In this document: positions 10,231-40,578 of the stretch, in pieces
Layout: every line of letters begins with the position of its first letter
How positions within the stretch are numbered: position 1 is the stretch's first letter
From: Helicobacteraceae bacterium
Lineage (GTDB): Bacteria > Campylobacterota > Campylobacteria > Campylobacterales > Sulfurimonadaceae
Direction of reading: 5' to 3'
DNA: 64,000 bases
NCBI GenBank assembly: GCA_013138865.1
Contig: WTBY01000015.1
Coordinates: 1 to 64,000 of the forward strand
Notes under the pieces: generated by a model
The model's input: the letters and a program-made list of their open reading frames with translations, nothing else
Databases searched by the model: none
Told to the model about the DNA's origin: nothing
Program-made: the position numbers and the translations under genes

Positions 10231-10258
10231 TTGACAAACGCATTAAACCTGATAGACT
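10231..10258 (+). promoter_or_regulatory. Early-type sigma70 promoter, copy 3
   Basis: TTGACA at 10231-10236, a 16 bp spacer and TAGACT at 10253-10258. Spacer and flanks are nearly identical to the copies at 19163 and 36719. Confidence 0.85.
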
Positions 10259-13862: not shown

Positions 13863-13876
13863 TGCACTTAAGTGCA
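13863..13876. repeat. Palindrome TGCACTTAAGTGCA, copy 5
   Basis: Lies 4 bp after the terminase stop and 19 bp before the GTG start at 13896. Confidence 0.9.
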
Positions 13877-13895
13877 AGACCTATTGGAGAATATT

Positions 13896-15074
13896 GTGAA
13901 ACAACAACCAGCCACTAAAGATCCACGTAAAGTAGAGTACTTAGAAACTACTACCTTAGATGAAGCCTTTGACCGAACAGAATACTTATTTAAAAATTAT
14001 GATAATGTCTGGTTTGCCTATTCAGGAGGTAAAGACTCTCAAGTATGTTTGGAGGTGGCAGATATAGTACTTAAGCGATTACAAAAAGAAGGTGTACGAC
14101 CGCCAGAAGAAAAGGTAAATGTATACTTCAGAGACGAAGAAGTAATTCCCCCTATTGTGTGGGAGACATGTGCGGATGCCCACCAATCAGGTAGATGGAA
14201 CTTTAGATATTATGCTATACCTATGGCTAGTCGTAAGTTTGTACTAGGAGAGCTAGTACCCTTTACTATGTGGGATCTTAATAGAGAACATATACGTACC
14301 CCACCAGAGTTTGCCATTACAAGTCTTTATGATAAGTTTGGGGAAGTAGTAGACACCAGTGACCTAACCCAAAAGGATATGGATCACCTTATGTTCTATG
14401 ACCTAAAAGGATCAACTGTGCTATGTACTGGGGTTAGAGCAGATGAGTCATTAGCACGATTTGGTGGTGTAATGGCAAACAAGTCAGAAAGATGTTGGCT
14501 AGGAACGTCAGCTAAACAACATATAGCAAAACCAATATATGATTGGACAGAAATAGACATCTTCAAGTTTATGTATGACTACGATATTGAATACTGCAAA
14601 ACATATAACGATTTATTGTGGTCAGGCAGATCTCTACGAGTTAGTTCGTCATTACACGAAATGAACAGTATTCATTTAGATAAACTAAAAGGGATGTACC
14701 CAGAGTACTACCATCAGATTATCCAGATATTCCCAGAAATGGAATCACAAACTAGATATTGGAAAGATTACAACTCAACCGGGGCATTGAAGATGTACGA
14801 CCCGTCATTTGATGGGTTACGTAAATATTGCCATGATAAGGTAGGAGAACAACCAGACTTACTAGCCAAATATCTTCATTATGTTGGAGCATGTGAGAAA
14901 GCCAGAAACAATAAAATTGAAAGACAAGGGCATGCTAAGAATTTGGGAGGGTACCCAATACTGTATGTGTTTAACAACCTGTTAAAGGGTAGCTGGTTTA
15001 AAGACGGAGCTTCTCCAATGAAGGATATGGACATATCACCAGAACATCATGAGTATGAGCGTGGGGGCATATAA
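13896..15074 (+). CDS. IbrA-like PP-loop ATPase (PAPS reductase family)
   Basis: 392 residues from GTG 13896, which has TTGGAG in front; the upstream GTG at 13872 is inside the palindrome. The PP-loop FAYSGGKDSQV lies near residues 40-50. Further signatures are NVYFRDEEV, STVLCTGVRADESLARFGG, and AKPIYDWTEIDIFKFMYDYD, the pattern of the PAPS-reductase-like group that includes IbrA (DUF3440). These enzymes adenylylate or handle sulfur chemistry, but the substrate of this group is not established. It has no Fe-S tail typical of true APS reductases. It is followed by GNAT, HNH-like and ParB-like genes, and the ParB-like one at 16154 corresponds to IbrB. Confidence 0.75.
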   Translation: MKQQPATKDPRKVEYLETTTLDEAFDRTEYLFKNYDNVWFAYSGGKDSQVCLEVADIVLKRLQKEGVRPPEEKVNVYFRDEEVIPPIVWETCADAHQSGRWNFRYYAIPMASRKFVLGELVPFTMWDLNREHIRTPPEFAITSLYDKFGEVVDTSDLTQKDMDHLMFYDLKGSTVLCTGVRADESLARFGGVMANKSERCWLGTSAKQHIAKPIYDWTEIDIFKFMYDYDIEYCKTYNDLLWSGRSLRVSSSLHEMNSIHLDKLKGMYPEYYHQIIQIFPEMESQTRYWKDYNSTGALKMYDPSFDGLRKYCHDKVGEQPDLLAKYLHYVGACEKARNNKIERQGHAKNLGGYPILYVFNNLLKGSWFKDGASPMKDMDISPEHHEYERGGI

Positions 15075-15508
15075 TGTCACAGACACATACTACATCAAGT
15101 GGACTAGAAATCTTGGTGCTAAGGCAGGAGCTAAAGAGTACTAAAAGCTTAAACCAATTAGCCAAAGGTACTGTAGTCACCCTTACGACAGACCCAACTT
15201 GTAAATGGTGGATCGCTATCCATGAATCAAAGGCGGTAGGGGTAGTATGTGCTAAAGATATGGGTAACGGTAAGTATAGAATGAAGTCAGATATTGTTGC
15301 CCCAGAGTATCGGGGTGAAGGTATATACCGCTTACTGAGTGAACAAAGAGAAGAATGGTGTAAGGAACAAGGAGCCACAGAGTTAAATTGTTTTTCTAGT
15401 AGTTATAGTAGAAGCACCTTTGAACATCAGGGTTATATTATTGAAGGTGATGACACCAAAGATAATGTCTTTATGAAGAAACAATTAGACAAACCCACAA
15501 CTGACTGA
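15074..15508 (+). CDS. GNAT-family acetyltransferase-like protein
   Basis: 144 residues; the ATG overlaps the PP-loop stop (TAATG). Motif A reads DIVAPEYRGEGIYRLL, the acetyl-CoA pyrophosphate loop, and the region ending STFEHQGYII fits motif B. The substrate is unknown; GNAT folds in phages modify proteins, small molecules or, in Mu Mom, DNA bases. Tight coupling to the PP-loop gene suggests a shared pathway. Confidence 0.75.
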   Translation: MSQTHTTSSGLEILVLRQELKSTKSLNQLAKGTVVTLTTDPTCKWWIAIHESKAVGVVCAKDMGNGKYRMKSDIVAPEYRGEGIYRLLSEQREEWCKEQGATELNCFSSSYSRSTFEHQGYIIEGDDTKDNVFMKKQLDKPTTD

Positions 15509-15510
15509 CA

Positions 15511-15519
15511 TGTTATACT
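15511..15519 (+). promoter_or_regulatory. Possible extended -10 element (TGTTATACT)
   Basis: The same 9-mer as at 1734-1742, in the 75 bp gap before the HNH-like gene. No -35 box at normal spacing. Weak evidence. Confidence 0.2.
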
Positions 15520-15583
15520 CAGAAATGAAACACCGATAAATAGTCTCAAAACTAAAAAAACAAACATAAGCAAAGGTATTATT

Positions 15584-16144
15584 TTGAAAATAAAAACATC
15601 GTACAATGGTTGGAGTCCCGAAGTAAGAAGTGTAAGAGGGACAGAATTTTATAATATGCTCAGACGTGGGGAAATAGAACAGAAAGGTAAATGTGGTATG
15701 TGTGGCGTACCAGCTAAATTCGCACCCCTACAATTTCACGCAGAAGAATATGGACCGACATGGGAGGATTATTTCTTTCACACATATGAAGTATGTTGCC
15801 ACTGTCATGGTATGATTCACGTAAGGTACAAACATAAGGATGCATGGTGGATCTATTTGAAGGCTATTGCTGAACAAGGACCGCAACAAATATTTACCAA
15901 TATAGGCACATTCTTTACTCAAGTAAAAAGGACAGGCGTGACTCCTATTGTGGGGACGCATGGAAACAAACCACCAGCACCCTTTGTATCAGGAAACTCA
16001 GATATAGATAATATCCCACCTAAACCGTATTATGGTACATATAAAGTGCCTACACTACATGATGAGGATGGGGTAGTAATACCCGATTGGGATTGCCTAA
16101 CAGCAGACCAGAAACTAGAATTTAAGAAAGATACACCACTTTAG
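15584..16144 (+). CDS. HNH-like zinc-binding protein
   Basis: 186 residues from TTG 15584, with AAAGG 7 bp ahead. CGMCG near 37-41, FHAEEYG near 51 and VCCHCHGMIHVRY near 70-82 make a Cys4-type zinc site with a His-rich core resembling HNH endonucleases. The C-terminal 90 residues are Pro/Gly-rich and unrecognised. It lies inside the PP-loop/ParB cluster, so nuclease activity may relate to that system, or it may be a homing-like passenger. Confidence 0.6.
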   Translation: MKIKTSYNGWSPEVRSVRGTEFYNMLRRGEIEQKGKCGMCGVPAKFAPLQFHAEEYGPTWEDYFFHTYEVCCHCHGMIHVRYKHKDAWWIYLKAIAEQGPQQIFTNIGTFFTQVKRTGVTPIVGTHGNKPPAPFVSGNSDIDNIPPKPYYGTYKVPTLHDEDGVVIPDWDCLTADQKLEFKKDTPL

Positions 16145-16153
16145 GAGAGACCT

Positions 16154-16666
16154 TTGAACCAGCCAATAGACAGTATTACATGGGTACATGTTAATGACCT
16201 ATCAAGTAACCTATATAACCCAAACGTATGTTCGGGATTAGAGCATGACTTATTAGCCCACTCATTATTGACTAATGGCTGGATTCAACCTGTATTGGCT
16301 CACAAAGAGACCAACACTATTATCGATGGATTCCATCGGTGGAACCTAACCAGAACTAATACCGAGTTATTTAAAATGACAGACGGCAAGGTTCCAGTAG
16401 CCTTCCTAGATATTAGTGAAGCAGATCGTATGATGCTGACCATACGGATTAACCGTGCCAAGGGCGTACATGTAGCATTTAAGATGCATGACTTGGTATC
16501 CAGCTTAGTAAAAGACCACGAACTTACTGTGAACGAAATTGCTAAAGGTATCGGAGCACCGAAGCACGAGATTGAAACCCTATTACTTGAAGATGTATTT
16601 GAGAAGAAAGATGTAAAAAATACAGCTTATAGTAGAGCATGGAGACCACAACGAAATGCAAGTTAA
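16154..16666 (+). CDS. ParB/sulfiredoxin-fold protein, IbrB-like (paralogue 1)
   Basis: 170 residues from TTG 16154 with an AGGAGAG site. The ParB/Srx core is seen as LLTNGWIQPVLAHKETNTII then DGFHRW, the GxxR phosphate-binding motif. It lacks a clear helix-turn-helix DNA-binding domain of chromosomal ParB. IbrB proteins of this size are found next to IbrA PP-loop proteins, as here (IbrA-like gene at 13896). Likely ATP-binding; exact reaction unknown. Confidence 0.7.
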   Translation: MNQPIDSITWVHVNDLSSNLYNPNVCSGLEHDLLAHSLLTNGWIQPVLAHKETNTIIDGFHRWNLTRTNTELFKMTDGKVPVAFLDISEADRMMLTIRINRAKGVHVAFKMHDLVSSLVKDHELTVNEIAKGIGAPKHEIETLLLEDVFEKKDVKNTAYSRAWRPQRNAS

Positions 16667-17159
16667 ACTAACCCCCCTAGACGAGATATTCCCGTACTAC
16701 CAGAACGCCAAGCCTCATAAGGTAAAGCTAAAGATCTTACAGACTAGTATTAATAAGTTTGGATTTGATCAACCTATTGTGGTGGACGAAGACGGTATAA
16801 TTATTAAAGGTCATGGTAGACGATTAGCATCACTCAACCTAGGTATTAAAGAAGTACCTGTAGTAGTGAAAGAAGGTCTTACTGAAGTACAGAAGAAGAT
16901 CATACGTATTGCTGATAACAAGATATTTGAGAAGTCAGATATTGAAGTATTGAAGGTTAAAGAGGAATTGGAAGCATTAAACTCTCAAGGGGTGGAAGGT
17001 TTAGCTGATTTCTTCAAATTAGACGATTATGGTATTAAGTCCATGGTTAAGGATGCATTAGGAACTTCAGAAAGATCTAAGTCAGGAACCGGATCAGCAG
17101 TGGAAGGTAGTATGGTGTCATGTCCTATATGTGGAAGCGTACATTGGGAGGATGATTAA
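16656..17159 (+). CDS. ParB/sulfiredoxin-fold protein (paralogue 2)
   Basis: 167 residues overlapping paralogue 1 by 11 bp. Core FGFDQPIVVDEDGIIIKGHGRR shows the ParB/Srx nucleotide motif GHGRR near 52. The C-terminus carries a small zinc knuckle, CPICGSVHWEDD. It is clearly related to the next gene (FDQP(I/V)VVD, IIIKGHGR shared) and more distantly to paralogue 1. Confidence 0.75.
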   Translation: MQVKLTPLDEIFPYYQNAKPHKVKLKILQTSINKFGFDQPIVVDEDGIIIKGHGRRLASLNLGIKEVPVVVKEGLTEVQKKIIRIADNKIFEKSDIEVLKVKEELEALNSQGVEGLADFFKLDDYGIKSMVKDALGTSERSKSGTGSAVEGSMVSCPICGSVHWEDD

Positions 17160-17639
17160 ATGAAAATTGTAATGTTAGATCCTAAGAAGTTAGTACCCTA
17201 TAAAAACAATGCCAAGGTACATACGGAACACCAAATAGAAGAGTTAGCTAAAATTATAGCCAGAGACGGGTTTGACCAGCCCGTGGTAGTAGATAAAGAC
17301 CATATCATTATCAAGGGTCATGGTAGAGTACAAGCAAGCCTTAAACTGGAACTGGACGAGATACCTGTAATAGTGCGTGATGACTTATCACCAGCAGATG
17401 CAGCCTTATCTAGAATGGTAGATAATGAATCAGTTGATACTGAGTGGGATGCCATAGCTCTAGAGTTAGAGTTAAATGGTATTAGTGAGTTGGGGGGAGA
17501 TATAGCCGACACATTATTAGACGATATAGACTTCAGCACACTAGGGGATGGAACACTACAGAACGCAATAGCGACTAAGAGTGCTATTGATGAAACTGAA
17601 GTTACCCATAAGTGTGAATCATGCGGATATGAGTGGTAA
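17160..17639 (+). CDS. ParB/sulfiredoxin-fold protein (paralogue 3)
   Basis: 159 residues starting at the base after the paralogue 2 stop. Core DGFDQPVVVDKDHIIIKGHGR, then EIPVIVRDDLSPADA and MVDNESVDTEWD, matches phage ParB-like nuclease-domain proteins. The C-terminal zinc ribbon CESCGYEW parallels that of paralogue 2, so the two arose by duplication. No helix-turn-helix is visible, which argues against a partition function. Confidence 0.75.
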   Translation: MKIVMLDPKKLVPYKNNAKVHTEHQIEELAKIIARDGFDQPVVVDKDHIIIKGHGRVQASLKLELDEIPVIVRDDLSPADAALSRMVDNESVDTEWDAIALELELNGISELGGDIADTLLDDIDFSTLGDGTLQNAIATKSAIDETEVTHKCESCGYEW

Positions 17640-29914: not shown

Positions 29915-29927
29915 CCCACGGAGGGTA
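29915..29927 (+). promoter_or_regulatory. Repeated ribosome-binding leader CCCACGGAGGGTA, copy 1
   Basis: The same 13-mer occurs at 31060, 34867 and 36764, always just before a start codon. It contains ACGGAGG, similar to the ACGGA core bound by CsrA. This copy has no promoter directly upstream. Confidence 0.75.
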
Positions 29928-29932
29928 TGATT

Positions 29933-30175
29933 ATGAATATTGTATTTACAGGACCGGCAACAGTTAATGGCGAGAGAGTAGTAAGATCGCTCCTAGAAGA
30001 GATTGCTAGAGAGAATGGGCACTATGTCCAACCATCAGTAGATAGATCTACCCATTGCGTAGTAGCCAGTAGTGCAGACTTTATGAGCAGAAAGGGTAAG
30101 AAATTACGGGATGCTGATGAGTATGGAGTAACAGTAATATCACCGGACACCTTCCTAGAAAAATACACCCACTAA
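29933..30175 (+). CDS. Stand-alone BRCT domain protein
   Basis: 80 residues from ATG 29933, 7 bp from GGAGGG as in the sister leaders (ATG 29927 is too close). IVFTGPATVNGERVVRSLL, THCVVASSADFMSRKGKKL and DEYGVTVISPDTFLEKY give the order of BRCT strands and helices seen at the C-terminus of NAD-dependent DNA ligases. BRCT domains bind DNA ends or phosphopeptides. A domain alone, with no ligase nearby, is unusual. Confidence 0.75.
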   Translation: MNIVFTGPATVNGERVVRSLLEEIARENGHYVQPSVDRSTHCVVASSADFMSRKGKKLRDADEYGVTVISPDTFLEKYTH

Positions 30176-31010: not shown

Positions 31011-31038
31011 TTGACAAACGAGAGTACTATGTTAGTAT
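31011..31038 (+). promoter_or_regulatory. Early-type sigma70 promoter, copy 9
   Basis: TTGACA at 31011-31016, a 16 bp spacer, TAGTAT at 31033-31038. Drives the PPDK-like gene. Confidence 0.85.
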
Positions 31039-31059: not shown

Positions 31060-31072
31060 CCCACGGAGGGTA
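31060..31072 (+). promoter_or_regulatory. Repeated ribosome-binding leader CCCACGGAGGGTA, copy 2
   Basis: Five bases before the PPDK-like ATG at 31078. Confidence 0.75.
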
Positions 31073-31077
31073 GTACT

Positions 31078-33216
31078 ATGGCACATATCTTCGGATATAC
31101 CACAATGGCACAAACCAATACAGATACAGCTACAGTAGAGTTACTGGGAGGTAAGGGCTTAGGTTTAATCAATATGTCTATTCAGGGATTACCCGTCCCG
31201 ACAGGATTTGTTATCACAACAGATGTATGCAATACCTACCGTAAGAAGGAAAGCCTAGAAGCTAAAAATAACTACATTAGTCAACTAGTACAGACGCAAG
31301 TAATGCCATTGTATGAACAAATGTCTAATGAGTTAGGATATGCCCCTCTAGTATCAGTAAGGTCTGGGGCGCGAGTATCAATGCCGGGAATGATGGACAC
31401 CATACTTAATGTAGGATTGTCCGACACTACTATGCCCTACTGGAGAAAACACTTAGGAGTGATACCCGCCCTAGATAGCCAGAGACGGTTTATTCAAATG
31501 TATGGTGAGATTGTATTAGGGATTAGCCCTAGCATATTTGCTAATAAGTTAGACTTTGCTAAAGACAGTCAGGGGGTTAAGACAGACCAAGAACTATCAG
31601 CTAAATCACTACAATCTGTAATAGAGGCATACTTAGGTGTGTACCATCAACTTGGGGAGCAACTACCCCAGACTATATCAGAACAATTTGAAGGGGCTGT
31701 TAAGGCTGTATTTGATAGTTGGGACAATCCAAGAGCCAAGCATTATAGAAAGATGAATGGGTACTCCGATGAGTGGGGAACAGCAGTAACTATTCAAATG
31801 ATGGTGTTTGGTAATATGAATGATCAATCCTGCTCAGGAGTATTATTTACCAGAGACCCTTCAAATGGGAACAATGCAATCCTAGGAGAGTTCTTAGTGA
31901 ATGCACAAGGTGAAGATGTAGTGGCAGGAATCAGAACACCAGAACCACTAGAAGCAATGAACCAGTGGAATCCAGAGGTTCATGCGGAGTTACTAACCAC
32001 TGCCATTAATATGGAAACCACAGCCCTAGATATGCAGGACATGGAGTTCACAATACAAAGTGGAAAGCTATATATCCTCCAAACCAGAAATGGTAAAAGA
32101 ACCCCGAAAGCAGCTTTCAAGATAGCATACGACATGTATCAAGATAAGTTTATTACCAAGACTGAACTGAAGAAAAGAGTTACAGGTAATATGTATGAAG
32201 GGTTAGCAGGAACCAAGTTAGCACCCTCAGCAGAAAGTATTACCCCAGATGCTATTGGCTTACCAGCAGGGGGAGGGGTAGTTAAAGGAGCCATAGCCTT
32301 CTCAAATGATAAGGCAGTTGAATTATCTAAGAAGGGCAATGTAATCTTAGTAGCAAAAGAAACTACTCCAGATGATATTGTTGGGATGGAGGCGGCTGTA
32401 GGCATACTTACCAGTACAGGTGGAGTTACCAGCCATGCCGCAGTGGTTGCCAGAGGAATGGATACCGTATGTGTAGTGGGGTGCCAATCAATTAATGTTA
32501 AACCAGAAGACGGACTATACTTCACAAAAGATGATAGTCCGATACCTACCCTAGTAGCGGAGGGAGATATTATTACTATCGATGGAAGTACTGGGGCAAT
32601 ATGGCACAAGAACTTAGACCTAATAGAGGGTGAGACCTCAATGGAAGCAGAAGCAATTATAGACCTACTACTAAATAATAAAGATGTTGCCTATATAACC
32701 ACCACCCCAGAGGAAGGTAAGAAGTACACATGGCTGGAACCAACCCTCAATGACGAGGAAATGATGCAGCACTTAAGTGCCATGGTGGAACACAACACAG
32801 TTATAGTCGATTTGGATGATGTAATGAATCAACTAGATGAATATGATAGACAATACTACCACCTGCTAGATCCGACCTTAATGGCTATGTCCGTCTTAAA
32901 AGCTAGATTGACCCGCAAGATTGAGTTACTTGCCGAGTTCCCCCATAAGGATAAGGTGATCCTAAAAGTACCTAAATGGGGCAGTGGTATTGTAGGATCC
33001 GACTCAGGATACGAGGTTATAAGTGAAGCCGGAACCGTACAAGATATGATGAAGGGCGGGGCAGTAACTATAACAGAGCACTTCATTAAACAAGTGTTGG
33101 GAAGTAAAGCTGTGTACACACAACTAGTTAAGGTGATGAAAGACCAAGGCATAGAGATATTGAAAATGCCAAAACCTAAAGTGAAGGAGGTAGCCGTATA
33201 TGAACTGCTCGGGTAG
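31078..33216 (+). CDS. Pyruvate phosphate dikinase-like protein lacking the PEP domain
   Basis: 712 residues. The ATP-grasp domain is clear: LLGGKGLGL near 23, SVRSGARVSMPGMMDTIL near 93-110, VFGNMNDQSCSGVLFTRDP near 244 and NAQGEDVVAGIRTPEP near 275. The phosphohistidine domain has GGVTSHAAVVARGM with the catalytic His at 453, matching His455 of Clostridium PPDK. The normal C-terminal TIM barrel (about 340 residues with a CGE-type catalytic motif) is absent; after residue about 530 there are 180 unrelated residues. So it may take phosphate from ATP onto His453 but hand it to an unknown acceptor instead of pyruvate. It has its own promoter and leader, and tyrosine-phosphatase-like genes follow. 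The frame is intact, which argues against a pseudogene. Confidence 0.85.
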   Translation: MAHIFGYTTMAQTNTDTATVELLGGKGLGLINMSIQGLPVPTGFVITTDVCNTYRKKESLEAKNNYISQLVQTQVMPLYEQMSNELGYAPLVSVRSGARVSMPGMMDTILNVGLSDTTMPYWRKHLGVIPALDSQRRFIQMYGEIVLGISPSIFANKLDFAKDSQGVKTDQELSAKSLQSVIEAYLGVYHQLGEQLPQTISEQFEGAVKAVFDSWDNPRAKHYRKMNGYSDEWGTAVTIQMMVFGNMNDQSCSGVLFTRDPSNGNNAILGEFLVNAQGEDVVAGIRTPEPLEAMNQWNPEVHAELLTTAINMETTALDMQDMEFTIQSGKLYILQTRNGKRTPKAAFKIAYDMYQDKFITKTELKKRVTGNMYEGLAGTKLAPSAESITPDAIGLPAGGGVVKGAIAFSNDKAVELSKKGNVILVAKETTPDDIVGMEAAVGILTSTGGVTSHAAVVARGMDTVCVVGCQSINVKPEDGLYFTKDDSPIPTLVAEGDIITIDGSTGAIWHKNLDLIEGETSMEAEAIIDLLLNNKDVAYITTTPEEGKKYTWLEPTLNDEEMMQHLSAMVEHNTVIVDLDDVMNQLDEYDRQYYHLLDPTLMAMSVLKARLTRKIELLAEFPHKDKVILKVPKWGSGIVGSDSGYEVISEAGTVQDMMKGGAVTITEHFIKQVLGSKAVYTQLVKVMKDQGIEILKMPKPKVKEVAVYELLG
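32769..32780. repeat. Palindrome GCACTTAAGTGC, copy 10 (inside a gene)
   Basis: Inside the PPDK-like gene, in its non-conserved C-terminal part, read CAC TTA AGT GC (His-Leu-Ser-Ala). Confidence 0.9.
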
Positions 33217-33955: not shown

Positions 33956-34418
33956 ACACCCGAAGAAACAGGAACTGTACATCACCGATAATGCCTTCGA
34001 TGATTACATGGGTTTGTATCCTGCCGGTACTATGTTAGGATTAAAAGACCTGTTAAAAACCATGGCACCAATTACACACCCTATGGGAGATAAACGTAAT
34101 GGTGACGTGGTATTCAGAGTAATAGGAACCCATCTAAGAAGCGTCTCCCATATAGATGATAAGGTTTCAGCATACGAGTTAAAACTCCTATGTGGTACAT
34201 GTGGTGGTAGAGGGATGTTAGTCTTTTATGACGAGTGCCCACTATGTAGTACAACTGGTTGCCCCTCTTGTGAGAAGGGTCTAGTTAAAGTAAGAAGAAA
34301 GTGTCCAGATAAATTATGTGGATCTAAACAAACAAACAAAGGTAATAGACATGCCAAGCATCAAATTCAAAACAAGCAAAATGGTAGGCATCATTCACGG
34401 AGGACCGTACAGAAATAA
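33945..34418 (+). CDS. Protein with DnaJ-like Cys-rich zinc domain
   Basis: 157 residues with an AGGAAGGAAG site. The N-terminal 85 residues form an unknown domain; CGTCGGRGML, CPLCSTTGCPSCEKG and CPDKLCG (about 83-125) look like DnaJ-type CxxCxGxG zinc modules. The last 35 residues are basic and overlap the phosphatase gene by 68 bp, so their exact end may be flexible. Confidence 0.6.
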   Translation: MVVKHPKKQELYITDNAFDDYMGLYPAGTMLGLKDLLKTMAPITHPMGDKRNGDVVFRVIGTHLRSVSHIDDKVSAYELKLLCGTCGGRGMLVFYDECPLCSTTGCPSCEKGLVKVRRKCPDKLCGSKQTNKGNRHAKHQIQNKQNGRHHSRRTVQK

Positions 34419-34797
34419 ACCTAAGAAGATGTTCGGGGTAAAAATGGCGAAAGAGATTGATCGTCCATGTGATGTAGATATTCCAACTGAAGATTTCTCA
34501 GTACCAGATAAAAAAGTAATGGCATGGGGACTATTCCACGCCTACCGAGGAATCAAGAAGCATGGGGTTATTTACGCAGGCTGTATGGGCGGTATAGGTC
34601 GCACAGGATTATTCATGGCGTTAATGTTAAGACTAGCCTATGAAGCCAGAACATCAGATACCTCAGATAGAACCGATGAGCATATCGGCTACCTAAGAGA
34701 GCATTACCACCCACACTCAGTAGAGACCCCCGAGCAAAGAGAGTACGTCCGAAACTTCAACTTGTTTTGGTTAAAGCTAGCAGTACGATTCTTATAG
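34351..34797 (+). CDS. Tyrosine/dual-specificity phosphatase-like protein (PTP 1)
   Basis: 148 residues from ATG 34351 with AAAGG upstream, overlapping the previous gene. The P-loop YAGCMGGIGRTG has the CX5R signature, C78 and R84, with the following Thr-Gly and an upstream Asp-rich segment (DVDIPTEDFSVPDKK) that could hold the general acid. It would remove phosphate from protein or nucleotide substrates. Paralogous P-loop to the gene at 35937. Its stop overlaps palindrome copy 11. Confidence 0.7.
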   Translation: MPSIKFKTSKMVGIIHGGPYRNKPKKMFGVKMAKEIDRPCDVDIPTEDFSVPDKKVMAWGLFHAYRGIKKHGVIYAGCMGGIGRTGLFMALMLRLAYEARTSDTSDRTDEHIGYLREHYHPHSVETPEQREYVRNFNLFWLKLAVRFL

Positions 34798-34821: not shown

Positions 34822-34849
34822 TTGACAAACGCTATAAAACTGTTAGAAT
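34822..34849 (+). promoter_or_regulatory. Early-type sigma70 promoter, copy 10
   Basis: TTGACA at 34822-34827, a 16 bp spacer, TAGAAT at 34844-34849, one of the two best -10 boxes in the family. Confidence 0.85.
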
Positions 34850-34866
34850 AGTTGTTAGATGTTAAA

Positions 34867-34879
34867 CCCACGGAGGGTA
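34867..34879 (+). promoter_or_regulatory. Repeated ribosome-binding leader CCCACGGAGGGTA, copy 3
   Basis: Overlaps the first of two ATGs (34879, 34882) of the next gene. Confidence 0.75.
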
Positions 34880-34881
34880 TG

Positions 34882-35919
34882 ATGAATCACCAGATAAAGT
34901 ATTTAGATCAAGTAAAGAAGAAACCTTTTTTCAGCAAGATAAATATATCCGACATACCTTTAGGTAATGTGGTTGATACCATGGTTAAAGCAGAAAGTGG
35001 ATTAGGTACGAAGTCTCCTGATGCAGAAGCCTTAGCATTTTACTTAATGAATCACGCCTATATGTTAAGCAGTGCAGACTTAACCAATTATGAGCCAACA
35101 GGTAAGCATGTACAGATAATCGATACCTACTTAACAGAAGGAACCCGAATATTCCAAAGATTGTTTTACTATATGTTATTAATCTGTACTAGAGAGAGCC
35201 GACATGTACATAGTAGTAACAATCTAATGGGCGATGTGCTAACCAAATATGGGAGCGACATACACTCCTTCTTAGATATGATTAGAGGTGGTGGATCTAG
35301 TAGTGCTGCCAATAAGCTAAGAATTAGTCCTCCCAAAGTGACCCTAGGAGAATACACCGACTACCTAGAATGGATGTTTTATAACGGAAGCTTCTCAGGA
35401 GGGTATGGCGGTAGTGCTTGGGGTGATGTGGCTAAATGTTTAAACAATTATGTACAAGGTAATATTTCAGCAGAAGTAATGGTAGATACTGGCTTCACCT
35501 TAGCCCATAACAATGGACCGATATTTAATAAAGGTATGTTGTATACAGGGTACTCTAATGAGTTTGGGGTGTTGCTTGACGTACAACGTGCAGGGCAGAT
35601 GCCAAGACTAGTACATGAGCAACTTATACTGTCTCATGCCTATATAGCTAGCCTAGTACCACTACCAGTAGAAGTCTCAAAGATCTACACTGAAGCTGTG
35701 ATGATCCATAAAGATAGTTTTAAGGGAATAATGGATTGGGAGGAAGTGCATAACCTGGGAGCCTTAAATAATCTAAACTCCTACAAAGCCAAATTCAAAA
35801 AATTTCACCCAACTATGGTAGTGACTACTGAGGCATATAAGGATTCCACGCAGTACTATTATGTAACACCAACTACTAAAGTAAAAACCTTAACAAGAAA
35901 ACAATTACTACTAGGATAA
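34882..35919 (+). CDS. Protein of unknown function between the two phosphatases
   Basis: 345 residues from the second ATG, better spaced from GGAGG. An N-terminal helical domain is followed by a Gly/Ser-rich loop (RGGGSSSAANK), GGYGGSAWGDVAKCL, and TGFTLAHNNGPIFNKGMLY, a segment with His, Asn and Lys that looks catalytic. No family can be named. Its own strong promoter and its place between two CX5R phosphatases suggest it is a partner or a target in the same pathway. Confidence 0.65.
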   Translation: MNHQIKYLDQVKKKPFFSKINISDIPLGNVVDTMVKAESGLGTKSPDAEALAFYLMNHAYMLSSADLTNYEPTGKHVQIIDTYLTEGTRIFQRLFYYMLLICTRESRHVHSSNNLMGDVLTKYGSDIHSFLDMIRGGGSSSAANKLRISPPKVTLGEYTDYLEWMFYNGSFSGGYGGSAWGDVAKCLNNYVQGNISAEVMVDTGFTLAHNNGPIFNKGMLYTGYSNEFGVLLDVQRAGQMPRLVHEQLILSHAYIASLVPLPVEVSKIYTEAVMIHKDSFKGIMDWEEVHNLGALNNLNSYKAKFKKFHPTMVVTTEAYKDSTQYYYVTPTTKVKTLTRKQLLLG

Positions 35920-35936: not shown

Positions 35937-36710
35937 ATGAATAACAGTAAATTCGGTATAGTGATGGTCGGGGATATAGATGCACACCCTAGAGTAGAAC
36001 CCTTCAAGCAAAGTGTTAGCCCAAAGAAGAAGGCACCAAAGAAGTCACAGACCACTAAACAGCGGATAAGCAACCACAAGACCACTCAGGGGGGTGGATT
36101 TAAGCGGTGTTGGGAGACACACCCACCCCTACCTATTAAGGTAAAAGATAAAACCTATTACATAGAAGGTGGTAGCTGCCACCACCAGCCTAAAGATGTA
36201 GATATATTCATTGGTTTAGATTGGGGAATGACAGACTCAGAAATGAGTTACCCATGGAGTGATGGAGTAGCCTTCAAATTCACCATTAAAGATATGAGTG
36301 TTCCCGACAATATCACTGAGTTTAAATACCTATTAAACTATTTGGAGAATAGTCTGAAAGAGGGTAAGCGGATATATATTGGTTGTATAGGGGGGCACGG
36401 CAGAACAGGATTAGTATTCTCAGCATTAGTCCAACAGATGACAGGTAATGTATCCAGTACCAGCTACGTGAGAAGTAACTATTGCAAGAAAGCAGTGGAA
36501 TCTAACGAACAAGAATCATGGCTGCACCACCACTTTGGAATAACGAAAGACGGGGGATCTAAAAATAAAGGACGAAACTCCACAAAAATGAGTAATGCTG
36601 GAGGTTATTGGGGTAACAGTACCAAGCCAACTAAGGCTGTAACAAAAACAGTTAAACCAGTAAGAACACCACTAAGCATCCATAGCCCAAAGACCAAGAT
36701 TCTCAATTAG
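35937..36710 (+). CDS. Tyrosine/dual-specificity phosphatase-like protein (PTP 2)
   Basis: 257 residues with an AAGGAGAAG site. A basic N-terminus (about 25-55) leads into a phosphatase-like core: VDIFIGLDWGMTD, then RIYIGCIGGHGRTGLVF with CX5R at C150 and R156. The C-terminal 60 residues are Lys/Thr/Ser-rich and probably disordered. It shares the unusual CxGGxGRTGL loop with the protein at 34351. Substrate unknown. Confidence 0.7.
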   Translation: MNNSKFGIVMVGDIDAHPRVEPFKQSVSPKKKAPKKSQTTKQRISNHKTTQGGGFKRCWETHPPLPIKVKDKTYYIEGGSCHHQPKDVDIFIGLDWGMTDSEMSYPWSDGVAFKFTIKDMSVPDNITEFKYLLNYLENSLKEGKRIYIGCIGGHGRTGLVFSALVQQMTGNVSSTSYVRSNYCKKAVESNEQESWLHHHFGITKDGGSKNKGRNSTKMSNAGGYWGNSTKPTKAVTKTVKPVRTPLSIHSPKTKILN

Positions 36711-36718
36711 ATCTTTAT

Positions 36719-36746
36719 TTGACAAACGCATTAAACCTGTTAGAAT
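36719..36746 (+). promoter_or_regulatory. Early-type sigma70 promoter, copy 11
   Basis: TTGACA at 36719-36724, a 16 bp spacer, TAGAAT at 36741-36746. Last copy in the window; none lies in the virion module. Confidence 0.85.
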
Positions 36747-36763: not shown

Positions 36764-36776
36764 CCCACGGAGGGTA
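36764..36776 (+). promoter_or_regulatory. Repeated ribosome-binding leader CCCACGGAGGGTA, copy 4
   Basis: Five bases before the ATG at 36782. Confidence 0.75.
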
Positions 36777-36781
36777 AAGAA

Positions 36782-37603
36782 ATGGCAGTTAAGATAGACC
36801 ACACTTCAGTAATGAAAAAATTACCACTAAGCAGTACCTCAAACTTGGCACTGGAATCAGGAGACCTACTCGTTGAAGTTAAACCTACCAGCATTAAGAT
36901 AAATCATGTGAAAGGTCAGGTTTGGGAAGAGCAAGTTATACCACTTAGTAAAGGTGTCTTGACATTATTATCTAGTAATAGTCTAGGTAAACTTAGCCAA
37001 GGACATATAGCCCACTTAATAGATACCGCTATAACTAAATTGTTATCCTATAATGGTGGAGCCGCATCACTAAAGACAGGAAACCTTAAAGTACAAGGCA
37101 CCCTAACTGGAACAAGTAAGACCTCAACACTAGAAACCTTACAGAAGCAAGCAATTATAGATATACCCCCACCAGTTAAGACCCACCCAGCACACCAAGC
37201 GGCTAAAGAGTCGTTAGCTAACATGAAGGCGGTTACGGGAGAACCACAAGAAATACCCCTAAAAAAGGTACAGCTAAAAGACGCTAATATTATGTACCAG
37301 CCAGTAGAAGGAACCTCTTCAGGAAGTACCTATTATTATATAGCCGCGTCAGATAGCTTAAAGGTAGGTATTAGGCTAGTAGGAGGAAAGTTAAGCTTCC
37401 GAGTGGAAGGAGACTTGCATACTAATGCAGCCAACTTGGAAGCGGCAGGGATGATAATGTCAAACTCTCATGCCTCCGTACACTTAGAAGTGGGTACCAA
37501 GCAAATGGCTAGAAGAACTGTGGGAGCCATACTCACTGATCTAGGTGTTGTGTACATAACCCCTATACCAGAGATAGATCCTCTGTATAACAAAGGAGCA
37601 TAA
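36782..37603 (+). CDS. Protein of unknown function before the polymerase genes
   Basis: 273 residues. The N-terminal 80 residues are beta-rich, the middle is Thr/Ser/Lys-rich, and the C-terminal part (GIRLVGGKLSFRVEGDLH ... HLEVGTKQMARRTVG) resembles the C-terminal region of the protein at 37829 (a FRV-type strand). No family recognised. First gene of the operon ending in DNA polymerase. Confidence 0.6.
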   Translation: MAVKIDHTSVMKKLPLSSTSNLALESGDLLVEVKPTSIKINHVKGQVWEEQVIPLSKGVLTLLSSNSLGKLSQGHIAHLIDTAITKLLSYNGGAASLKTGNLKVQGTLTGTSKTSTLETLQKQAIIDIPPPVKTHPAHQAAKESLANMKAVTGEPQEIPLKKVQLKDANIMYQPVEGTSSGSTYYYIAASDSLKVGIRLVGGKLSFRVEGDLHTNAANLEAAGMIMSNSHASVHLEVGTKQMARRTVGAILTDLGVVYITPIPEIDPLYNKGA

Positions 37604-37829: not shown

Positions 37830-38245
37830 TGGAGAACCCACACATAAGAGCCTATTGTGAAAGATTGGCAGACACACTACAAGCGGAAGTAGAGTATGGT
37901 GTTAATGCTAAAGGGTACTGGGAAATTAATGGCAGTATGATCTTTAGAGTTCAAGGGCTACCCGTAGTAGCTAGTATTGGTATTGTGGGAGGCAAATTCT
38001 TTCCAGTAGCAAAAGTACTTAAAGCCTTAGCTCATGTAGGAGGTAACTTATACCTCCAAGTAACCGTAGAAGAGAGTGACACATACATTGACGTAGTGGA
38101 TGCTAAAAAATTAGGATACACCCCTCCAGAAGAATTAGCAGATTACGACAACTGCACCCTACAAAAAGCAACACAGAAGTTCAAATCAGGTATAGTTAAG
38201 AAATACAAACAATCCAAGAACTCAGGGGAATGGTCTCAATGCTAA
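37829..38245 (+). CDS. Protein of unknown function
   Basis: 138 residues overlapping the previous stop and the polymerase start. Beta-rich centre (GSMIFRVQGLPVVASIGIVGG) and a basic C-terminus (KFKSGIVKKYKQSK). May help the polymerase, by position only. Confidence 0.6.
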   Translation: MENPHIRAYCERLADTLQAEVEYGVNAKGYWEINGSMIFRVQGLPVVASIGIVGGKFFPVAKVLKALAHVGGNLYLQVTVEESDTYIDVVDAKKLGYTPPEELADYDNCTLQKATQKFKSGIVKKYKQSKNSGEWSQC

Positions 38246-40578
38246 AGATATGGACAGGTGCCAAACTAGGCGATATAAAGAAAACAGTAAACCCCGCAGT
38301 AAAAGCACAACCAGAGGATATGGAGTACAAGGTATTCCCCCTCAATACAGAATTTCCACCACCACTATCCAAAGGTGATGTATGTTTGGCACAGGGTTCT
38401 AAAGCCTTAGCCAAGATACAAGAAATGGGGTTAGTACCCAAAGGTAGAACCGTAACGTCACTTAGAAGTACAGAGATACCATACCAAGACGGTATACTAC
38501 TCATTACCTATGATCCGGGGATTGCCATGATTGACTATGGTAAGTACGTGGATATGCAAATAGATATATCGCTTGCATGTAGGGCAGTAATAACAGGCAC
38601 CATCAAACCCAAAATAGGCAACTACAGGTGGGTAACAGACTTCTCCAGCATCTTAGACACCATTAATACCCAACACCACAAGACAGGAAAGTTAGTGCCT
38701 GTATCCATGGATTTAGAGACCGTAGGCTTAAACGAATATGATGAAGAAGCGTGGATAGTAAGTATTAGTCTTACAGTATCTGTAGGCACAGCCGATGTAG
38801 TCTATTTCACAGGAGTAGATGATCAACCTAAGAAAGGAAGTACTCTATGGAATCAAATATCGGAAGTACTAAATAGTACCAAGGCTCTAACTAGAGGAGC
38901 CAATGGTAAGTATGATAGACGATGGATGAAGAAGAAGTGGGGTATGGATAATAGTAACTATAAATTCGATACCACTTTAGTGGGGAGCCTACTAGACGAG
39001 AATAGAAGCAATAGTTTAAATACTCATGCCAAGATCTACACAACCATGGGTGGTTATGATGATGAATTTAATAAGTCTCATAATAAGGGAGCCATGCAAG
39101 AGATACCCAAGGACAGTTTATTGCCTTATGCTGGTGGCGATACTGATGCCACTCAAAGAGTAGCTAATGCCATGCGCAACCTATTACTACAAGATCAAGC
39201 CTTAACTAGATTTTATGTAGAACTACTCCACCCCGCAAGCATATGTTTACAGGAAATGGAGGAGGAAGGGATCATCATAAATGTAGACTATTACATGAAG
39301 CTACAACATGACCTGACCATAGAACTTCAGTCAGTAGAAAAACAAGCCATATCCATGATGCCTAGACGGTTGCAGATTAAACACCAAGGTAATACTAAAC
39401 TCACCAGAGCCGCATTAATAAAAGACTACATGTTTGGTAAACAAGGCTTGAACTTAGTACCACTAAAAGTAACAGAAAAGACAGGACAACCTAGTACAGC
39501 CAAAGAACATTTATTAATGTTTTCAGAATACCCAGAAGTAAGCGAGTTCCTTAAACTTTACCAAGAGTACTCAACTCTATCAAAGACATTAGGAACCTAT
39601 ATCACAGGATTCTTGAAACACTTGCACCCAGACGGTAGATTTCACCCTACAGCTATAATGTATAAAGGGGATTATGGCGGTACAGGGGATAGCGGTACTG
39701 TGACAGGTAGGTTAGCCTTTAAAGCACCAGCAGTACAAACCATACCTAAACACAGTAAGTATGCCGGAGCCTTACGTGTGGGCTATGAGGCACCAGAAGG
39801 ATGTAAGGTCGTTAATCTAGATTACTCGCAAGGGGAGTTAAAGATTACCGCATGTTTGGCAAATGAACCAACCATGATAGAACTGTACAAGCAGGGAGTA
39901 GACCTTCATATGGTTACAGGTGGTCAGCTAAATGGCTACAACAGAGAAGATATGGAGATCATGAAGGTAGAAGATCCTAAAATGTACAAAGCCATGAGAC
40001 AAGGTGGCAAGGCAGGAAACTTCGGACTAATCTATGGTATGGGAGCCAATGGCTATAGGATATATGCCAAGGATACTTATGGGGTAGAAATGACTGATCA
40101 AGAAGCCCATAATCAGCGAGAAGCCTTCTTTGAATTATATCCGGGATTAATAGTTTGGCATAAAACATACCAAGCCCATGCTAGAAGATGGGGGCAAGTA
40201 AGATCTCCACTAGGAAGAGTAAGACATTTGCCACTAATCAATAGTCCAGATAGAATGGCATCATCAAAGGCAGAGAGACAAGCCATTAATAGTCCAGTAC
40301 AGGCAACCCTGTCAGACTTAACTATGTACACGCTAGTGGAGTTTAGAAAGAAGTATGGTAATCCTGATGGGTGTAAGTTTTGTTTAACTACCCATGACAG
40401 TTTAACCGCCTACATGAAGGATGATGAAGTTGATACATGGCTACCGCGAGTAGCACACATCATGGAGAACCTACCACTGGAAAAAGTGTTTGGATGGAAG
40501 CCTCAAATACCCTTTACCGTGGATGCAGAAGTGGGCACCAACTTTGATAATGTTGTAGAAGTTGACAGATGTTGGTAG
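38239..40578 (+). CDS. DNA polymerase, family A
   Basis: 779 residues from ATG 38239 (AGGGGA nine bases ahead); ATG 38230 is too close to it. The 3'-5' exonuclease domain shows MDLETVGLNEYDEEAW near 154 (DxE), ANGKYDRRW near 218 and GGDTDATQRV near 295. The polymerase domain has motif A NLDYSQGELK near 527, motif B RQGGKAGNFGLIYG near 586 and motif C TTHDSL near 718. The O-helix residue is Phe. It would replicate phage DNA with the helicase and primase of the first 4 kb. Last gene before the virion module. Confidence 0.92.
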   Translation: MLKIWTGAKLGDIKKTVNPAVKAQPEDMEYKVFPLNTEFPPPLSKGDVCLAQGSKALAKIQEMGLVPKGRTVTSLRSTEIPYQDGILLITYDPGIAMIDYGKYVDMQIDISLACRAVITGTIKPKIGNYRWVTDFSSILDTINTQHHKTGKLVPVSMDLETVGLNEYDEEAWIVSISLTVSVGTADVVYFTGVDDQPKKGSTLWNQISEVLNSTKALTRGANGKYDRRWMKKKWGMDNSNYKFDTTLVGSLLDENRSNSLNTHAKIYTTMGGYDDEFNKSHNKGAMQEIPKDSLLPYAGGDTDATQRVANAMRNLLLQDQALTRFYVELLHPASICLQEMEEEGIIINVDYYMKLQHDLTIELQSVEKQAISMMPRRLQIKHQGNTKLTRAALIKDYMFGKQGLNLVPLKVTEKTGQPSTAKEHLLMFSEYPEVSEFLKLYQEYSTLSKTLGTYITGFLKHLHPDGRFHPTAIMYKGDYGGTGDSGTVTGRLAFKAPAVQTIPKHSKYAGALRVGYEAPEGCKVVNLDYSQGELKITACLANEPTMIELYKQGVDLHMVTGGQLNGYNREDMEIMKVEDPKMYKAMRQGGKAGNFGLIYGMGANGYRIYAKDTYGVEMTDQEAHNQREAFFELYPGLIVWHKTYQAHARRWGQVRSPLGRVRHLPLINSPDRMASSKAERQAINSPVQATLSDLTMYTLVEFRKKYGNPDGCKFCLTTHDSLTAYMKDDEVDTWLPRVAHIMENLPLEKVFGWKPQIPFTVDAEVGTNFDNVVEVDRCW

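Follow-up and report, generated by a model that had tools for sequence, protein, structure and literature searches.

The gene at positions 31078..33216 (plus strand) of the window, by which we mean the whole stretch of 64,000 nucleotides analyzed here, encodes a truncated PPDK of 712 residues that probably forms one half of a new phosphate-transfer enzyme consisting of two parts. Specifically, we propose, with moderate confidence, that this protein loads phosphate in a two-component His-dikinase whose acceptor component is the product of a nearby gene (hereafter X), with PTP-type phosphatases acting at a later step. We propose this arrangement because X is linked to truncated PPDKs, is absent from full-length PPDKs, and in two viruses is fused to the phosphohistidine domain in place of the PEP/pyruvate barrel. 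The window is phage-like throughout, and its contig comprises 88,179 bases of an assembly of 3.03 Mb.

The loading half of the truncated PPDK is intact, judging from its residues. Translation from an ATG start yields ATP-grasp and phosphohistidine domains followed by a variable tail, as delineated by Pfam, NCBIfam, and PDB matches. Pfam identified PPDK_N (E 9e-51) and the His domain, PEP-utilizers (E 9e-23), and the match to TIGR01828 (560 bits over residues 14-536, against a cut-off of 843) indicates that the protein is PPDK-type. The PPDK of Clostridium symbiosum in the PDB aligned with residues 20-527 only (425 bits), and the PHROG cluster that holds the protein (18609) is labeled ‘kinase’. 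The ATP-grasp/nucleotide domain (residues 20-345; 31135..32112, plus strand) comprises 43 positions that are invariant among 51 viral homologs, and the swivelling phosphohistidine domain (residues 396-510; 32263..32607, plus strand), which includes the catalytic His453 (codon 32434-32436), comprises eight. Invariant residues include K26, R95, E279, E323, Q335, R337, T451, and H453, while R137, D280, and D321 are kept in 48-50 of the 51 homologs. Thus, the residues of the PPDK nucleotide site (K22, R92, E323, Q335, and R337) and the TxH motif of the phosphohistidine domain (T451 and H453) are present and invariant, which bears out a first-pass annotation that had described the ATP-grasp and His catalytic half as intact. 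That annotation had also taken His453 to match Clostridium numbering, which is close but not exact: the numbering coincides over residues 321-337, but His453 aligns with His455 of C. symbiosum, an offset of two.

What the protein lacks is the barrel that handles PEP and pyruvate. PEP-utilizers_C (PF02896) was not found by Pfam in the 712-residue protein, and a Pfam profile search recovered it from 0 of 19 virus records that carry the cassette and from all four full-length PPDK control contigs (4/4), as well as from one host-genome gene on a contig other than that of the window. Residues 511-712 (32608..33213, plus strand) instead form a tail, delimited by an AlphaFold2 model, profiles, and conservation, that is about 130-245 residues long across truncated PPDKs, as compared to ~350 residues for the barrel. 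AlphaFold2 modeling of the whole protein (pLDDT 91.6) predicts that this tail is a small alpha/beta fold and not a (beta-alpha)8 barrel. The absence of PF02896 here and in all cassette records, together with this predicted fold, upholds the earlier claim that the barrel has been lost.

The tail has no relative in Pfam, and its PDB match is marginal, with none convincing. Alignment of the tail with genuine PPDK C-termini using hhalign was limited to the first ~34 residues, which form the linker helix; the idea that the tail is a divergent barrel was therefore rejected by profile comparison, as the linker helix alone aligns. Foldseek comparison of the tail with PPDK yielded long gapped alignments and one weak match to a TIM-barrel enzyme (3fcp; 194 columns), and the tail may be a shrunken remnant of the PPDK barrel. 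No sign of a PEP/pyruvate site was seen in it. The first-pass annotation had also reasoned that a new acceptor was needed in place of the barrel. An acceptor is indeed required, but its site probably lies outside the last 180 residues: no position of residues 511-712 is invariant (versus 51 in the ATP-grasp and His domains combined), and the tail is absent from both of the natural PPDK-X fusions described below. Conservation thus makes the tail an unlikely seat for a new acceptor site.

The gene for X (34882..35919, plus strand; PHROG 20946) begins 1.7 kb downstream of the truncated PPDK. Its open reading frame is also listed from a TTG at 34852, but the placement of the promoter and the leader/Shine-Dalgarno element indicates that translation starts at the ATG at 34882. 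The model of X is all-alpha (pLDDT 90.8), and 19 positions are invariant in the alignment of its homologs. The fold had no match in the PDB (best E 1.1) and was matched by a handful of viral models; solved structures, Pfam, NCBIfam, and PADLOC yielded nothing convincing and no recognized fold or acceptor site. The proposed role of X as the acceptor component draws on gene linkage and the fusions.

X belongs to a conserved block of genes. The order PPDK-PTP1-X-PTP2-Y-PolA, in some cases followed by a portal gene, was read in 115 viral loci, some of which share contigs. Annotated phages that carry the block have Rhodobacter, Rhizobium, Vibrio, and Stenotrophomonas as hosts, and their gene order is ppdK, a PTP, X of ~350 residues, usually a second PTP, Y of ~270 residues, a DNA polymerase, and a portal. 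A single PTP takes the place of two in six of 94 loci. In the window, the block is closed by a family A DNA polymerase (38230..40578, plus strand), identified from Pfam and context. The first-pass annotation had proposed checking for co-occurrence with phosphatase-like genes in other genomes, and the PTP genes of the block do accompany the truncated PPDK across viral loci.

To quantify co-occurrence, we considered the 45 truncated PPDK matches with at least 8 kb of downstream sequence. X was encoded downstream of 43 of these and was fused in one (L077). The remaining match (L067; 757 residues) looks like a frameshifted full-length PPDK, because its start matches that of a protein of 906 residues (L068). 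X therefore accompanies all 44 genuine truncated PPDKs (43 downstream and one fused) and none of the eight distinct full-length PPDKs from other viral contigs (875-908 residues), which are without any partner gene. X matched 40 phage records, all with the same hosts as the phages that encode truncated PPDKs, and was not matched in plasmids. It was also identified in six genome contigs that look like phage DNA, since the whole block was visible wherever flanking sequence was available. Much of this co-occurrence reflects genes that are inherited together, because the block adjoins the DNA polymerase and portal genes in most genomes; the module is a core rather than an accessory component of its phage lineage. 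We found no paper in the open-licence literature that describes it.

Fusions of X to the His domain provide evidence of a different kind. These were identified in a different phage lineage, on two independent contigs (L077, which is the same as L202, and L203) whose fusion proteins are 56% identical and where open reading frames of 780-793 residues pass from PPDK to X at residue ~495-517, the position at which the barrel would start. The X profile matched the fusions with E-values of 5e-51 and 5e-29, and the fusions retain X residues E115, R117, H118, G186, G187, W190, D212, H219, N220, and K227. Downstream of the fusions are one PTP and then a Y-like gene, in the same order as in the block, although similarity to Y is slight, with an E-value of 9e-4 in L203 and recognition by eye in L202. 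Neither contig contains a portal homolog, and the DNA polymerase is more than 30 kb from the fusion in one contig and was not found in the other. Because gene order is kept in these contigs without a portal and without an adjacent DNA polymerase, the association of PPDK with X is more than shared synteny. Split and fused forms comprised separate groups in a phylogenetic tree with a small outgroup, and the fusions were nearer to full-length PPDKs. This suggests that the split and fused forms may have separate origins; given the small outgroup, we draw no evolutionary history from the tree.

The two phosphatase genes of the window encode Cys-phosphatases with the signatures GCMGGIGRTG (PTP1; 34318..34797, plus strand) and GCIGGHGRTG (PTP2; 35937..36710, plus strand). 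The coordinates of PTP1 are those of the longest open reading frame, and its true start may be the ATG at 34351; PTP2 was assigned from Pfam, alignment, and a profile match. The Cys and Arg of the Cx5R loop and the general-acid Asp are invariant in 21 homologs, including the neighbors of the fusions, and the PTP profile matched PTP structures with an E-value of 8e-14. PHROG 17568 holds the PTP1/PTP2 family yet is labeled ‘thymidylate synthase’; its members here are PTP-type phosphatases, and on these motifs the label looks like an annotation error. The conserved gene Y (36782..37603, plus strand; PHROG 25950) was assigned from its PHROG and synteny. A gene of vibriophage J26 annotated as a pyruvate decarboxylase (L270:10088-10942) belongs to family Y, and Pfam gave no match for it.

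Three genes of the block are preceded by related control elements on the plus strand. A motif scan identified a promoter of the form TTGACA-N16-TAGTAT with a TG element upstream of the truncated PPDK (31011..31038), with members of the same promoter family ahead of X (34822..34849) and Y (36719..36746). The family has 12 matches in the window versus 1.9 expected, which substantiates the promoter that had been noted before the truncated PPDK. It is phage-wide, with sites at 10231, 19163, 22706, 24737, 25485, 31011, 34822, and 36719, all on the plus strand; members begin with TTGACAAAC and have TG and TAG before the start, and TATTTGACAAAC is invariant in seven aligned sites. The leader/Shine-Dalgarno element CCCACGGAGGGTA before the truncated PPDK (31060..31072) recurs as exact copies before X (34867..34879) and Y (36764..36776), and no known RNA motif from Rfam was identified in the leader. 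A fourth exact copy (29915-29927) precedes a gene for a small protein (29927-30175) that appears BRCT-like by eye.

In the two-component His-dikinase that we propose, the ATP-grasp domain would, given its intact residues, move a phosphate from ATP to His453 with release of AMP and PPi or Pi. As gene linkage and the natural fusions suggest, the His domain would then swivel and dock on X, which would bind the acceptor and take the phosphate in the position otherwise held by the PEP/pyruvate barrel. The variable tail, which is dispensable once X is fused, may help X to dock or may act as a spacer. One or two PTP-type phosphatases would then remove or move the phosphate, such that phosphorylation would probably serve for activation within a short pathway and would not be its end product. 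Counting against this model, X has no recognized fold or acceptor site, much of the co-occurrence is joint inheritance, the fusions group in the tree with full-length PPDKs and not with the split form, and a single PTP occurs beside the fusions and in some other loci.

Comparison with characterized systems indicates both a precedent and several differences. The two-component small-molecule dikinases HpeHI, CreHI, and PpsAB (PMC12167813) provide a precedent for splitting and resemble the phage system in having a split His-dikinase with a non-pyruvate acceptor domain, a role proposed here for X. The modules would likewise be encoded together on two polypeptides if X, which accompanies every genuine truncated PPDK and is fused in two viruses, is the acceptor module, as we infer. 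However, their split separates the ATP-grasp domain from the swivel and acceptor domains, whereas the phage split separates the ATP-grasp and swivel domains from X, and neither NCBIfam nor the PDB folds listed relate X to rifampin phosphotransferase or to the rifampin/phenol-binding acceptor domain of two-component dikinases, although a remote similarity is conceivable. Rifampin phosphotransferase (NF041857) shares the ATP-grasp and His domains and has an acceptor other than pyruvate, but its domain order is ATP-grasp, acceptor, and His, as compared to ATP-grasp, His, and tail in the phage protein, which scored 48 bits against a 999-bit cut-off. The earlier suggestion that rifampin phosphotransferase is a truncated relative thus did not hold. 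With PPDK itself (TIGR01828; C. symbiosum 1kbl), the phage protein shares ATP-grasp and His domains that match over residues 20-527, along with the catalytic His and the residues of the nucleotide site. The truncated form differs from PPDK in its missing barrel, its length (about 560-760 versus ~875-910 residues), and its obligate neighbor X.

In this model the acceptor is not pyruvate; the likeliest class is a small molecule or nucleotide used in phage replication. One possible reading, which we advance tentatively, is a phage pathway that has not been described before: a nucleotide or another metabolite of replication would be phosphorylated by the split His-dikinase, whose acceptor fold would be new and all-alpha, and enzymes of the PTP fold would then use this phosphate or take it off.

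Alternatively, the module may make a DNA base hypermodification, in which phosphorylation of a base or nucleotide yields an activated intermediate and the end modification protects phage DNA. The module adjoins a DNA polymerase, and a dCTP deaminase or dUTPase is encoded near ppdK in several phages. Such genes lie upstream of ppdK, adjacent to it or nearby, in vibriophages (L005, L008, and L263), and a dCTP deaminase-dUTPase is encoded elsewhere in the genome of RcZahn (L262:9845-10339). DNA of phage DLP5 was reported to be cut by only four of 36 enzymes (PMC5834331) and that of DLP3 by 0 of 15 (PMC7326821), and both phages carry the block. Known modification genes (PF00303 hydroxymethylase or deazaguanine genes) that could otherwise explain this resistance were almost absent: the thymidylate-synthase-type hydroxymethylase (PF00303) was detected in 0 of 25 cassette phage records, and QueC was absent from DLP5 and its relative Summit and present in only one of 26 records.

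Site counts undermine the inference of modified DNA from the uncut DLP3 digests, because 10 of the 15 enzymes used have no site in Stenotrophomonas phage DLP3 (L264 and L265), leaving only five informative (SmaI, 68 sites; ClaI, 18; EcoRI, 7; NdeI, 4; and XbaI, 1). Sites for PstI, SalI, ApaI, XhoI, and SphI are entirely absent where 19-42 of each are expected, and missing sites may largely explain the reported DLP3 resistance. Ratios of observed to expected 6-bp palindromes were 0.36-0.75 in cassette phages and 0.88 in the window phage (based on short stretches and four control phages), as compared to 0.97, 0.81, and 0.81 in T4, PhiW-14, and SPO1, which have modified DNA. Palindromes are thus avoided mostly more than in these phages, as expected of unprotected DNA, although this is a weak test. 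Moreover, the DLP phages carry a separate sugar module. Hypermodification as the main function, backed at first by the DLP3 and DLP5 reports and weakened by the site and palindrome counts, is no longer the leading reading and is now unlikely.

A sugar module (PIG-L, DegT, and glycosyltransferase) was likewise considered as a core part of the system and rejected, since it is variable (eight and nine of 27 viral records); it was not found on the window contig. Varying sets of genes for a PIG-L deacetylase, epimerase, aminotransferase, methyltransferase, and glycosyltransferase are encoded upstream of ParB and terminase in several related phages (L262, L261, L265, L263, and L004). The window encodes a PAPS-reductase/DndC-like gene (13872-15074), followed (15074-17639) by a GNAT acetyltransferase, an unassigned open reading frame, and ParB-like genes, at the site where some related phages have sugar genes near ParB/terminase.

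A protein-phosphorylation switch, in which a host or phage protein is the target of the dikinase and X and the PTPs reverse the reaction, is also unlikely. Kinase-like and PTP-like genes do adjoin, and the PTPs match protein phosphatases, but PTP-fold enzymes can also act on small molecules. The free-standing His-dikinases with characterized non-pyruvate acceptors named here use small molecules, no protein target is indicated, and the module belongs to the core genes, not the accessory ones. A role in counter-defence, through synthesis or destruction of a signal molecule that host immunity uses, would accommodate a phage-encoded module with phosphatases and no assigned acceptor. It is very unlikely given the fixed position and conservation of the module over the whole phage lineage, unlike typical accessory counter-defence genes, and its proteins have no match in PADLOC-DB.

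Least probable of all, to the point of being nearly discounted, is that the truncated PPDK is a working PPDK and a glycolytic auxiliary metabolic gene that interconverts pyruvate and PEP. The first two PPDK domains are matched in full, and an AlphaFold model of the J26 homolog (ORF98), which was called a PPDK, placed a barrel at 524-691 with PEP docked there (PMC12038007), a reading repeated in other vibriophage papers. Sequence comparison does not support this published reading: PF02896 is in no cassette record and is not matched in J26 ORF98 itself, X and Y account for the J26 neighbors annotated as a ‘membrane protein’ and a ‘pyruvate decarboxylase’, respectively, and the tail falls far below the barrel in length and has no invariant residue.

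The truncated PPDK is routinely annotated as PPDK and has repeatedly been reported as a glycolytic auxiliary metabolic gene. Inferences that phages redirect the carbon flow of their hosts have drawn on this gene, although the portion that would handle pyruvate and PEP is missing from it. X is a concrete candidate for the missing acceptor component, and the natural PPDK-X fusion offers a single polypeptide in which to look for the chemistry. If confirmed, the two-component His-dikinase would represent a new way of splitting dikinases and a new acceptor fold, and would constitute a core phosphoryl-transfer pathway in a widespread siphovirus lineage.
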